Origin: Bacteroidaceae bacterium
GTDB lineage: Bacteria > Bacteroidota > Bacteroidia > Bacteroidales > Bacteroidaceae
Assembly: GCA_017536695.1 (NCBI GenBank)
Contig: JAFXGX010000014.1
Location: forward strand, 1-61,496
Direction: 5' to 3'
Length of the DNA: 61,496 nucleotides
The number at the start of each line of letters is the position of its first letter. The first letter of the stretch is position 1. Made by a program: the position numbers and the translations under genes. This document shows, piece by piece, positions 31,770 to 35,687 of this stretch. Under the pieces are notes generated by a model that saw only the letters and a list, made by a program, of their open reading frames with translations, was not told where the DNA came from and made no database searches.

Positions 31770-31786
31770 GAGAGGGTCTGGAGTTC

Positions 31787-32440
31787 CTATGATAATAATG
31801 ATATCTTTTCGCGGGTAATATTGCTTACTTTCTTGAAAAAAGACTCCATCTGCTCTATGCTAAGCCTTATTTGTGGTATAAGCAATGACGCGTATTGCTC
31901 CTTGAATAGTCTTTTGTATAGTTCTCTAATCAGTTCGCAGGCCTCCAGGAATTGGTGGTGTTCAAGTGCCTTGCTGTAAAGATTAGAACAAACCTGCACC
32001 AGTGCGGGCATTATTTCTTGTGTTAAGGAGAAAGAGTGCTCGTTGTTAAGGTTGGATAGTGTGCAGCAAATACCTATCATGTCCCTTACTTTAAGGATAA
32101 GCAACTGTATAGACTTTTCTTTTTCAGGATTGCTTCCAAGAGGTCCTACGGTGTTTTCAAGAATTTCAGAACAGCAACCCAGGGCTTCAATAGCATATCT
32201 CCAGTCCCCCGTTTCCTCTGAAATCTTGGCCATTTCCTCGTTGTTGGTCATTGATACTGTACATGCAATGAGATAGGCATTGAATGTGTTGGGATATTCT
32301 TTTATTAGTTGTATGAGCTCATTATTCAGCAGTTTGCTCTCTGTAAGGAATCTTGAGTACTCTTTCTTGGCCAGATACAGCGAAATTAATTTGCTTTTCT
32401 GCATATATTTTACGGATTCTTCGTGTAAGCTGTTGTCCAT
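31787..32440 (-). CDS. Helical protein of unknown function, partner of the DUF4062 NTPase
   Basis: The protein has 217 residues, predicted almost wholly alpha-helical, with no signal peptide. TPR/HEAT-like alternation of helices is suggested (FLTESKLLNNELIQLIKEY, DWRYAIEALGCCSEILEN, FLEACELIRELYKRLF) but no repeat is clean enough to name. It lies 34 bases downstream of the NTPase gene and shares its A/T-rich composition, so they probably form an operon. It may be an adaptor or effector of the NTPase; this is inferred only. Confidence 0.55.
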   Translation of the reverse strand: MDNSLHEESVKYMQKSKLISLYLAKKEYSRFLTESKLLNNELIQLIKEYPNTFNAYLIACTVSMTNNEEMAKISEETGDWRYAIEALGCCSEILENTVGPLGSNPEKEKSIQLLILKVRDMIGICCTLSNLNNEHSFSLTQEIMPALVQVCSNLYSKALEHHQFLEACELIRELYKRLFKEQYASLLIPQIRLSIEQMESFFKKVSNITREKISLLS

Positions 32441-32474
32441 GTCTTGTGTGGTTTACAGATTAAGATTTGTTATA

Positions 32475-34874
32475 TTATATTTTGTCTATTGATAATAACA
32501 GTTCCATCGCTTCGTCGATGTGTCCTTTTTCCGACAGCGCTGTTGCCTTTTTTATGATGGCCATCTTGTATGTATTCTTAATGTCAGCATAAGAACTGTC
32601 TGTCTCGTAGCATTTTTTGTATGTAAGGTATGCGCTGTCAATGAGTTCCCAGCGGAGTCCTTCGTTTTCTTTAATACTTATCGCTGTGTAGTATATGAAT
32701 GTTGCTAGGCTATAGAGATCTTCGGCCCTTGTGATAAAGGCGTGCAGACCGCTTAGGCGTGGCCCGAATTCCAAGTACCATTCATCCCTCAAAAGGATGG
32801 ACATGAATTTTGTGATAGCGTCGAGCAATCTTACTTGTGATACTGGTTGTAACTTTTCAAGAAGTGCCGATACTAGGCCAATGTGGTTTGGGCGTTCCAG
32901 CAGCAGTTGTACACCTTCATCGGACATGAACTTGAAATAATCTTCTGAATCATATATGCTGTCAGCACATAAGTATTTTTCCATTATATCAGTATCGCAT
33001 GAGAGGATTGCGTAATATAAAAGATTTGATAGTTTCAGTGAGTCATCATCTGGGTAACCGGCCAATGCAGTACAAAGTTGTATGACGTAAGTATTTTCAA
33101 TGAGTCCGTCTCGTATTGTAGAGTTGTTCAATGTCCACAGTTTTGTTATGCTATCTTCGGAGAAAAAACAGTCAAAGATGTTCATGAACAGTGTGAACTT
33201 GAGTTCGTCCCAATATTCCCCAACAAGTGATGACAAGTCTTTTGTCCTTAGTCCACTGCCGGAATTTGCCAGGTAGCAGACGGCGTTTCTAAGCCATTTT
33301 GCCGACATCCTTTCCGAGATAAAATCTAAGGCGAACGAGAATGCCGCAGCAGGGTCCTTGGGCACTTTATGGTAAAGGCCGGTTATGTATCTGTTTGACT
33401 TTTCTATCTCGCTCTTTGCATCGGTGGTGTCAATTGCTGCAAAGTCCTGCGAGTTCAAGTATGAAGTGATGGTCATGAACAACCTTACAAACATTGGTGA
33501 GACTTTGTCGTTCTCCATCATCAGGTCAACATCGCTTGGCAGATTTATGTTGTATCTTTTCTCGTTGCTGATGACCACTTTCTTGATATTTGGTCTTCTT
33601 TCGTCAAGGCATATCTCTATTTCTGTATTTGCTTTTATCTTATTATAAATGTAAGTGCCGGAGGTACATGTGCATATAATTTTTAGTCCATTAATTGCCC
33701 ATTGGAGGCTTGCTGCGGTATTCTCCCTGGTGCATAATGATTCTAGCCCGTCAACAAGCACAACTACGCTACGGCCAATTTCCTGGAATTTATCCTTCAG
33801 GCTATAGAAACGGTTATTAAGGATTCTGTATGCGTCAGGCTTTTCAAGGATTTGTTCATCTGTCTCTTCGTCTAGCCGCAACTCTTGTTCCATCTCGCGA
33901 ATCCATATGAAAAGCAGGTTGTTCATCTGGCCAAGATAGGGTGTGGCAGTGATGATGGATATTAGCGGCATGTACTTTTCGTCTTCTTTCAAAGCATAGT
34001 ACAATTGAGACAGAAGTATGCTTTTGCCTGTTCCCATGCTGCCCGAAAGCAGCACTCTGTTATGCTTCCCAATCTTTTTAAGGAATGATGGTATGCCATA
34101 CAGGTCTACGGCATTTCTTAGGTTTCTGGCCAGTTGGGAGATGTTGGCGTTTCTTGCATATTCGTGCCATTTTATTTCTTGAGGCGAAGCGGGGAGTTCA
34201 CTGCTTATCTGGTTGCAAAGATAGTCGAATACTTTATTAGAGAAATCCTCTAGTCCGCCAAGAAATTTTCCGTTCCATTTAGACGAATAAGGAATGTAAA
34301 GGTTTTCCCTGCTCTTTTCCGACAGCAGTGTATATACTCGTTCCTTTAATAGCTCTAGCTTTTTCTGCTTGAATGTCTCCTTTTCAACGTATGATTCTAC
34401 TTTGTCTATTGGGATTTCTTTATATGATTCTGGACTACGTACGAAAAAGGCGCTGTGATCGATGTTTTCGCCATTGCTTCCAATTGCTCCGTACAGAATT
34501 TCTAGTTCTGTAACGCTGCAATTCTTTCCTTCAATTATAAGGTGGCGTTTTTCTGTTGACAATCTTGACAGTACTGACTCAATTCTGGTTTCATCAGGAA
34601 TCCAGCCATATCTGGCTCCGAGTAATGCTATAAAGAACGGACGGGATGACTCAATCATAGACATGCATACCTCAAGAACTGCATTTTCACTCTCTTCTTC
34701 GGTCATATCCTCTGTGTTAATGCCATATCTTAAGTCTATAGCCTGAATCTCTATTCCGTATTCGCGGAAGTGGTGGTTGAGCCTTGGTATTACATTGTAC
34801 TTAATCTCGTCACGTTCAGCATTCATGTCCTTGAACGTGGAACTTATGAAGATACTATATCGTCTTTTGACCAT
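32475..34874 (-). CDS. DUF4062 domain plus P-loop (STAND/NACHT-like) NTPase
   Basis: The protein has 799 residues. The DUF4062 domain occupies about 1-150 with its hallmarks IFISSTFKDMNAERDEI, IDLRYGI and RPFFIALLGARYGWIP (80-93). A P-loop NTPase follows at about 270-480, with Walker A GSMGTGKS (278-285) and Walker B VVVLVDGLESL (370-380). The rest to residue 799 is helical and repeat-like. The same order, a DUF4062 head on a NACHT ATPase, is found in eukaryotic NWD1/TEP1/NPHP3 proteins and in bacterial STAND proteins, many of which are antiphage sensors. Base composition is visibly richer in A/T than its neighbours, suggesting transfer. No nuclease or protease domain is obvious, so the output is unknown. 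Confidence 0.75.
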   Translation of the reverse strand: MVKRRYSIFISSTFKDMNAERDEIKYNVIPRLNHHFREYGIEIQAIDLRYGINTEDMTEEESENAVLEVCMSMIESSRPFFIALLGARYGWIPDETRIESVLSRLSTEKRHLIIEGKNCSVTELEILYGAIGSNGENIDHSAFFVRSPESYKEIPIDKVESYVEKETFKQKKLELLKERVYTLLSEKSRENLYIPYSSKWNGKFLGGLEDFSNKVFDYLCNQISSELPASPQEIKWHEYARNANISQLARNLRNAVDLYGIPSFLKKIGKHNRVLLSGSMGTGKSILLSQLYYALKEDEKYMPLISIITATPYLGQMNNLLFIWIREMEQELRLDEETDEQILEKPDAYRILNNRFYSLKDKFQEIGRSVVVLVDGLESLCTRENTAASLQWAINGLKIICTCTSGTYIYNKIKANTEIEICLDERRPNIKKVVISNEKRYNINLPSDVDLMMENDKVSPMFVRLFMTITSYLNSQDFAAIDTTDAKSEIEKSNRYITGLYHKVPKDPAAAFSFALDFISERMSAKWLRNAVCYLANSGSGLRTKDLSSLVGEYWDELKFTLFMNIFDCFFSEDSITKLWTLNNSTIRDGLIENTYVIQLCTALAGYPDDDSLKLSNLLYYAILSCDTDIMEKYLCADSIYDSEDYFKFMSDEGVQLLLERPNHIGLVSALLEKLQPVSQVRLLDAITKFMSILLRDEWYLEFGPRLSGLHAFITRAEDLYSLATFIYYTAISIKENEGLRWELIDSAYLTYKKCYETDSSYADIKNTYKMAIIKKATALSEKGHIDEAMELLLSIDKI

Positions 34875-35038
34875 AGTGCGAGAATATCATATGTGCGAAT
34901 ATAGTCATATTCTCGAACAAAGGAAGTAAATTGGAATAAAAAGTTGCAGTATCCTAAATTTTTAGTGTCTGCTTTTTGAGGTTGCCGCATGGCTTATTGC
35001 TATTAATGCGAATCAGTAGTTGGCAACTGATTCAAATT
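34875..35038. other. Intergenic upstream of the NTPase, A/T-rich
   Basis: AGAATAT near 34881 and ATATTCT near 34908 form a small inverted repeat just ahead of the NTPase start, and CAAAGGAA at 34918-34925 is a weak -7-like sequence on the minus strand. No convincing full promoter is seen. Confidence 0.3.
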
Positions 35039-35335
35039 TTATAAATTTGCAAATACAAGTAGAGCAATCGCCAACTTTCCAAAGATATGTACCAGCACTC
35101 CTTTGGTAGCTCTTGCTTTAGATGCTCTTTGAATTTCTGTTTTTTTAGGAGATAAAATATACAGCATGCATTCTCTTTTAAAAGCAGTAAGGTCATTCTC
35201 CGCAGCATCGGTCAATGTTATTATTTCAGGGAAAGGCAAGGCCCTTTTCCTCTTTTGGCCCACCAGATGAAGTTTTATTCCATAGTAGTACATGTTTTTC
35301 GTCGAGCAGTATCCTTCTACTATCGTTTGTTGCAA
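35039..35335 (-). pseudogene. Internally deleted IS982-family transposase remnant
   Basis: The 98-codon open frame begins inside the transposase (STKNMYYYGIKLHLVG, the conserved IS982 core) and ends with the family's C-terminal signature (KKTEIQRASKARATKGVLVHIFGK). The block that should join these two parts is missing, as is the N-terminus. No terminal inverted repeats are seen. It cannot be active and marks past mobile-element activity beside the NTPase operon. Confidence 0.75.
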
Positions 35336-35338
35336 TCA

Positions 35339-35455
35339 CAGAACAAGTCGGTGGTAAAAACCGAAATGGAACAAATTACAGCTCCGTACCAACAAGATAA
35401 ATTAGAGTTCATCAAGAATCCTGTTGTAGCAGAGTTCTTGGGATTATCGACGTTG
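35339..35455 (+). pseudogene. Fragment of a YhcG/DUF1016-type nuclease gene
   Basis: One frame encodes about 39 residues containing ITAPYQQDKLEF and IKNPVVAEFLGLS, which resemble the conserved segment of YhcG (DUF1016, PDDEXK nuclease) proteins just before their nuclease domain. Both ends are lost: the IS remnant lies on the left and a palindromic repeat on the right. It is a short relic; the assignment rests on motif memory. Confidence 0.5.
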
Positions 35456-35458
35456 TTT

Positions 35459-35554
35459 TGTCATTGCGAGCAAAGCGAAGAATCTCTAAAAAACTTCCCG
35501 ACTATACCGGAGAGAAAATCTATTCAGAGATGTTTCGTTACACTCAACATGACA
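35459..35554. repeat. REP-like palindromic intergenic element
   Basis: The ends are imperfect inverted repeats: TGTCAT..GAG..A.CGAA..ATCT at 35459-35485 is mirrored by 35528-35554. A single-arm relative with 24 of 27 identical bases lies at 54171-54197. The class looks like a nonautonomous palindromic (REP/MITE-type) repeat. It interrupts or abuts the YhcG fragment. Confidence 0.65.
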
Positions 35555-35615
35555 AGCGGGTTGTCCTCCGCAACGTAGTTGCTTGCCTGACGGCTTGTGA
35601 AAAACCATCAAATCC

Positions 35616-35646
35616 TTTGAAATTTAACATATACTGCATATATTTG
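35616..35646 (+). promoter_or_regulatory. Promoter for the sialidase fusion gene
   Basis: TTTG (35616-35619), a 19-base spacer, and TATATTTG (35639-35646) match the Bacteroidetes consensus exactly. Transcription would begin near 35653; the ATG is at 35688. Confidence 0.8.
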
Positions 35647-35687
35647 CCTAATAATAACTGAATAAAATAACTAATCACAAGATATTT

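Follow-up and report, generated by a model that had tools for sequence, protein, structure and literature searches.

Introduction

A preprint of May 2026 describes DUF4062 as a family of TIR-like enzymes that consume nicotinamide adenine dinucleotide (NAD+), or NADases (PMC13174449), and defence by a DUF4062 NADase is already known. A Klebsiella DUF4062 protein (KpSwz, of the Swarozyc type) shields Escherichia coli from phage by NAD+ depletion, in an abortive infection that is triggered by the phage portal and requires residue E97 (PMC13174449). The human vault protein TEP1 is likewise an active NADase, dependent on E1008, and both Swarozyc and TEP1 yield only ADP-ribose and nicotinamide, while no NADase activity was seen with human NWD1, NWD2 and NPHP3; control of the NADase by the nucleoside triphosphatase (NTPase) of the human DUF4062-NTPase proteins has only been speculated on (PMC13174449). 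Here we describe two adjacent genes, P0001 and P0002, in a 61,496-nucleotide contig of a gut-type Bacteroidaceae bacterium (JAFXGX010000014.1 of assembly GCA_017536695.1; contig C104 of genome G000 in our numbering, referred to throughout as the window), in which a DUF4062 head is joined to a STAND-type NTPase and followed by a separate small gene. We favour, with moderate confidence, the reading that the pair is an abortive-infection (population-protecting suicide) module, with a STAND-switched NADase and a split sensor arm that would include P0002; this draws on sequence relationships and on analogy with characterised relatives, and if true it would represent an unusual two-piece form of DUF4062 NADase defence.

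P0001 shares with Swarozyc a DUF4062 head, predicted to be TIR-like, with a conserved Glu and a patchy spread, and some relatives lie beside defence genes. However, the characterised Swarozyc is a single protein with an auxiliary helix-turn-helix (HTH)/winged domain that binds the phage portal, whereas P0001 joins its head to a STAND-type NTPase followed by a long tail, and a second protein is encoded separately. By Pfam, a P-loop region comes after DUF4062 in P0001, at the place described for the auxiliary domain of KpSwz. TEP1, NWD1, NWD2 and NPHP3 resemble P0001 in overall plan, as DUF4062 is followed immediately by a P-loop NTPase and then by another long region, but P0001 is bacterial and accessory, belongs to a two-gene system and has no WD40, TROVE or vWA domain found by Pfam. 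The order of DUF4062 and NTPase recurs in human TEP1, NWD1 and NPHP3. A compact bacterial system in which a second gene encodes some of the arm would open the proposed switch to testing.

In bacterial STAND defence proteins of the Avs and bNACHT groups, the effector is N-terminal, the sensor C-terminal and an NTPase switch lies in the middle. P0001 has the same order and differs in its DUF4062 effector and in that some of the arm may be encoded by a second gene. Thoeris combines a TIR signal maker with an effector, and the pair is similar in having TIR-type NAD+ chemistry and two genes; no known Thoeris effector domain is seen in P0002, since no Pfam family matches it above cut-off. No description of a STAND-fused two-gene form was found among the open-licence papers searched, a coverage that is incomplete and did not extend to the operon supplement of the preprint.

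The P0001 and P0002 gene pair

P0001 is a 799-residue open reading frame (ORF) on the reverse strand (window 32475-34874) and P0002 a 217-residue ORF (31787-32440) that lies downstream in the same direction after a gap of 34 bases (32441-32474). Both reading frames are open and every tested motif is intact. The two genes have the lowest GC contents (0.415 for P0001 and 0.396 for P0002) of the 22 window genes measured, the other 20 ranging from 0.466 to 0.550. An original prediction, made from the sequence alone, had reported these ORFs, their coordinates and spacing, several motifs in the P0001 translation (including GSMGTGKS and VVVLVDGLESL) and an A/T-richness relative to the neighbouring genes, and all of these are confirmed.

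The head of P0001 is a DUF4062 domain, predicted to be TIR-like, and a probable NADase of the same kind as that of TEP1 (residues 6-223; reverse strand, 34206-34859). Pfam assigns residues 8-96 to DUF4062 (PF13271; E 3.6e-12, 46.7 bits against a gathering cut-off of 24.7), and a phmmer search of PDB chains with P0001 gives one significant match, the human TEP1 TIR-like domain (11gz_A, E 1.3e-15, residues 6-223). With a five-sequence profile the match to 11gz_A reaches E 5.6e-32. The P0001 motif SVTELE (residues 120-125; reverse strand, 34500-34517) aligns to SVTEME in TEP1, and the position of Glu125 is occupied by Glu in all 47 aligned DUF4062 rows, a set that omits L023, L025, L026, L030, L034, L045, L047 and L053 as near-copies, cut sequences or loci without a 700-residue ORF. 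The position of Glu123 is Glu in just 34 of the 47. We therefore prefer Glu125 over Glu123 as the candidate catalytic residue, based on its conservation and the TEP1 alignment, noting that TEP1 E1008 corresponds to Glu125 by number only if 11gz_A begins at residue 894, as we infer. Selection of the genome-contig loci by the peptides IFISSTFK and DM..ERD biases invariance there, with Glu125 lying outside the pattern; two of the loci (L003 and L024, both 66,151 bases) are apparently the same contig, and several loci with a single gene are near-copies of one another. Having seen no known effector nuclease or protease, the original prediction expected a new mode of action, an expectation that falls because the preprint identifies DUF4062 as an effector in its own right, with TIR-like NADase function (PMC13174449).

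Between this effector head and the presumed sensor region sits a P-loop core, the STAND-type NTPase region (residues 265-389; reverse strand, 33708-34082), with a Walker A motif, GSMGTGKS (residues 278-285; 34020-34043), and a Walker B-like motif, VVVLVDGLESL (residues 370-380; 33735-33767). The best Pfam match here is to AAA_16 (residues 270-379, E 3.1e-5, below its cut-off), with weaker sub-threshold matches of nSTAND3, NPHP3_N and NACHT to the same P-loop. No STAND or NACHT model in Pfam scores above its curated cut-off, and because all of the models are sub-threshold the STAND label rests on the order of the parts and the motifs. The tail (residues 400-799; 32478-33677) is presumed to be helical and its end may be TPR-like (tetratricopeptide repeat), as suggested by weak signals in a profile and in a relative: L031 has a sub-threshold TPR_8 match at the protein end and clear TPRs in its partner, and the profile match to the SPINDLY TPRs (E 0.03) is no better than stray ABC-transporter matches in the same list. 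These signals give the helical tail and helical partner of the original prediction indirect support at most. In PADLOC-DB (2023) P0001 matches only mad8 (E 0.013) and P0002 nothing, and no system protein model is matched.

Related pairs and their phylogeny

A scan of genome contigs returned 51 loci. The closest relative is L019, from a metagenome-assembled Bacteroidales genome of buffalo colon, which is 46% identical to P0001 over the whole protein and has a 227-residue partner starting 20 bases after the DUF4062 gene that matches P0002 (E 2.4e-29, 31% identity). When a profile of P0002 and the L019 partner is run over the 1,111 ORFs of the fetched loci, the only ORF found beyond the members and their copies is that of L033 (E 6.4e-7), a 426-residue partner that begins 11 bases after a DUF4062-STAND gene. 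The pair is thus a conserved two-gene module, with a homologous partner directly downstream in both L019 and L033, and the linkage that the original prediction proposed to look for elsewhere is present. Two further loci have the same layout, L081 (828 and 223 residues, 4 bases apart) and L031 (816 and 400 residues, 11 bases apart), with partners tied to P0002 only by weak, indirect links.

In a tree of DUF4062 domains the window, L019, L081, L033 and nine single-gene loci form one clade (support 99/96), in which the single-gene loci are one group (100/100) and the window and L019 are sisters (99/91). Across the alignment Walker A is found in 31 of the 47 rows and lost in 16, and the NADase Glu is kept in rows where the ATP site is gone. 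Members of the clade have either two genes or a single longer one, and some have lost Walker A but retain the Glu; these layouts provide natural experiments on the need for ATP.

A second order-level sample added no further pair loci, and among 56 genomes of the G794 family the one match is G794 itself. Scans of viral contigs and phages gave no phage-borne copies, and plasmids gave two distant heads with no partner.

The role of P0002

No Pfam or NCBIfam family matches P0002 above cut-off and PADLOC yields no match, the best stray match being at E 0.0036, and it is unassigned apart from its homologues in L019 and L033. The single-gene relatives are 1001-1047 residues long (about 1020), and eight of these proteins carry 189-211 residues past the end of P0001, an extension about the size of P0002. 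Comparisons by hhalign with a profile of these eight tails give probabilities of 62% for a five-partner profile and 72% for the L081 partner, which is one of the five. As single sequences the eight tails mostly fail, with 22.5% for one (five-partner profile) and 27.4% and 17.6% for two others (L081 partner), while 27 unrelated DUF4062 tails, also used as single sequences, gave at most 2.0%. No hmmsearch of the single-gene tails gives an E value better than 0.0066, and BLASTP of P0002 against the single-gene protein finds no match. Derivation of P0002 as the split-off tail of a single-gene protein is thus suggestive only. The original prediction proposed P0002 as an adaptor or effector. The evidence leans weakly to P0002 being a detached part of the sensor arm, because in each pair the partner immediately follows the tail, the L031 partner has TPRs and a single-gene clade exists.

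Proposed mechanism and alternative explanations

The domain order, the TEP1 match, the invariant Glu, the Walker motifs, the recurrence of the pair and its position in an accessory block, combined with the NADase activity and phage defence that others have shown for relatives (PMC13174449), are consistent with a suicide module as follows. The NADase heads of an active P0001 would most likely be kept separate at first, and the STAND switch would then bring several copies together. The tail and P0002 would form the sensing arm, in which P0002, as a subunit of its own, would bind the tail and serve either to detect a trigger made by the phage or to hold the arm closed before that trigger appears. 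Assembly would follow when the arm meets this phage-made signal, and the resulting loss of NAD+ would stop the infected cell.

Several observations weigh against this reading. DUF4062 by itself is no proof of NADase activity, because NWD1, NWD2 and NPHP3 carry it beside NACHT and showed no such activity in the test tube (PMC13174449). P0001 keeps both Walker A and Glu125, but Walker A is missing from L033, from L081 and from each of the nine single-gene members of the clade, and ATP-driven assembly therefore cannot be general. The two-gene layout is not one clade, because L031 falls outside, and in a six-sequence set P0002 matches the L081 and L031 partners only at blastp E >1. Two- and three-partner profiles and the L031 partner score below 1% by hhalign against the profile of single-gene tails. 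Lastly, 10 window neighbours were scanned with PADLOC, nine giving no match and one short C-terminal matches only, and by these 10 genes the window is not a defence island. In favour of the reading, the L081 pair is followed 224 bases on, on the same strand, by Cas6, Cas7 and Cas3 genes with two unlabelled ORFs among them.

A different role for P0002 is that of an antitoxin-like inhibitor, which would bind and silence the P0001 NADase until infection removes or displaces it. P0002 is small, co-directional and directly downstream of an enzyme that would be toxic, and it evolves faster than P0001 (31% versus 46% identity between the window and L019). However, no additional small gene immediately follows the DUF4062 gene in the single-gene clade, which therefore carries the enzyme without one, and the L031 and L033 partners, at 400 and 426 residues, are large for antitoxins. 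We consider an inhibitor unlikely.

The neighbours of related genes raise the question of whether signalling to a channel, and not simply starvation of the cell, underlies some NADase defences. A gene for an RCK-like membrane protein is found at E<1e-30 in 16 of the 56 loci scanned, seven of the 16 having built the profile and several being near-copies, and in all nine single-gene tree members the longest RCK-like ORF and the end of the DUF4062 gene overlap. In L019 the RCK-like gene comes after the partner; two RyR genes lie nearby, as do genes for TIR, PrsW and ADP-ribosylglycohydrolase proteins. In L038 and L058, too, an RCK-like gene neighbours a more distant DUF4062 gene. The host genome of the window has RCK-like homologues on three other contigs and five RyR matches, some clustered with SIR2-TIR and nSTAND1 proteins, and phage RyR proteins are reported to cleave or bind cyclic ADP-ribose signals (PMC13232231). 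The pair could then be a signalling module, in which ADP-ribose or a cyclic form made by the NADase acts on the RCK-like channel and RyR proteins, and killing is not by NAD+ loss. Against this, the profile scan detects no RCK-like neighbour for the pairs of the window, L033 and L081, the RCK label derives from sub-threshold Pfam matches, the single-gene loci are near-copies of each other, and Swarozyc and TEP1 yield only ADP-ribose and nicotinamide (PMC13174449); we regard this explanation as quite improbable. We give similarly little credence to a broader version for the whole clade, as a form of immunity based on NAD. Its DUF4062 NADase, switched by STAND and either split or in one chain, would be wired to an RCK-type channel. 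ADP-ribose made, or NAD+ lost, would gate the channel and collapse the membrane, RyR and ADP-ribosylglycohydrolase proteins would tune the signal, and the window pair would be a mobile sensor-plus-NADase half that uses channel and RyR genes of the host.

It is also conceivable that DUF4062 serves P0001 as a scaffold or for assembly and that the module has some other function; the same role of the domain may hold for NWD1, NWD2 and NPHP3, which showed no NADase activity (PMC13174449). We think such a pseudoenzyme very unlikely, given that all 47 rows have Glu125 but 16 of them have lost Walker A, and that in the PDB set the P0001 head comes closest to TEP1, which is active.

Probable insertion of the pair in the host genome

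The suicide module that we favour would be an acquired one. The pair occupies a 3.9-kb block (31770-35687) between a pseudouridine-synthase-like gene and a GH123 gene, and the nearest sister genome (G214) has the same neighbours (87-99% protein identity) with an empty site of about 200 bp in its place. We fetched 20 same-genus neighbourhoods, from 40 genomes with a match. In nine of these stretches the pseudouridine-synthase-like gene is next to GH123 without the pair, in four it is next to a thiamin pyrophosphokinase gene, two have other genes between, three end at a contig edge and two differ; neither P0001 nor P0002 is present in any of the 20 at E 1e-10. Gain by insertion is the simpler reading, because the neighbouring genes are directly adjacent in 13 of the 20, and the pair would then be a recently inserted accessory block. 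A core, vertically inherited region is rejected on the basis of the 20 stretches without the pair. Matches are rare more widely, in three of 301 family genomes at E 0.001 (the host included), in none of the 20 other same-genus genomes listed, and at E 1e-10 in eight of 395 genomes of a phylum sample and 10 of 393 of an order sample, these being mostly heads only. With an empty site in the sister and linked pairs elsewhere, the suggestion of a transferable accessory module is upheld.

Within the block a likely insertion-sequence remnant (reverse strand, 35003-35316), presumably IS982-like, consists of two segments, 35003-35143 and 35165-35316, which match one stretch of contig C67 in this genome at 91% and 96% identity, respectively. 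On C67 the 96% segment is inside a 288-residue ORF and the 91% segment is mostly just past its end; this ORF resembles an IS982-type transposase. The 98-residue remnant ORF in the window has no Pfam match at E 0.01. Mobile-element debris beside the pair, as originally predicted, is thus likely from the two segments. An A/T-rich block with such a remnant, absent from the sister genome, might be a decaying, non-functional passenger left by the insertion sequence, but with both frames open, the tested motifs intact and the layout common to a relative of 46% identity (L019), this seems most improbable.

Other DUF4062 loci and additional features

The window contains, at 35450-35487 and 35525-35554, short repeats (about 30-45 bases) whose copies are scattered over many contigs of the genome. 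Elsewhere in the same genome, a stretch of contig C108 (G000:C108:31000-50999; L157) encodes a RyR-ended 733-residue protein, a 454-residue SIR2-TIR protein and a 1530-residue nSTAND1-MORN protein, followed by a small RyR protein, a DUF697 protein and a VWA protein and then a 713-residue RCK-like homologue, and looks like a conflict cluster with an NAD/ADP-ribose theme.

In the single-gene locus L032 the DUF4062 gene is in an operon with genes for a protein kinase (PQKTA-rich), a 1100-residue multi-AAA protein and a PP2C phosphatase. By their ORF starts L021-L024, L026 and L035 appear to have the same operon setting, the families having been scanned in L032 only. L043 (9989-13713) has a 750-residue DUF4062 protein with a 489-residue gene 5 bases later, possibly another pair layout. 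In L009 (185-1326; G517:C65) two small genes precede a DUF4062-STAND gene, the first of the CAP12/Pycsar TIR family above cut-off and the second of the nucleoside deoxyribosyltransferase family below cut-off. A genome of the same family (G017:C52:6-215; L004, L007) contains a DUF4062 start, cut by the contig end, that is 51% identical over 70 residues and possibly a near relative of P0001.

We also note that the genome of the window encodes a second DUF4062 protein (L005, G000:C19:5154-7577) of 807 residues with the P-loop GIEGLGKS. It has no co-directional gene directly downstream, and the adjoining gene is presumably malic-enzyme-like.

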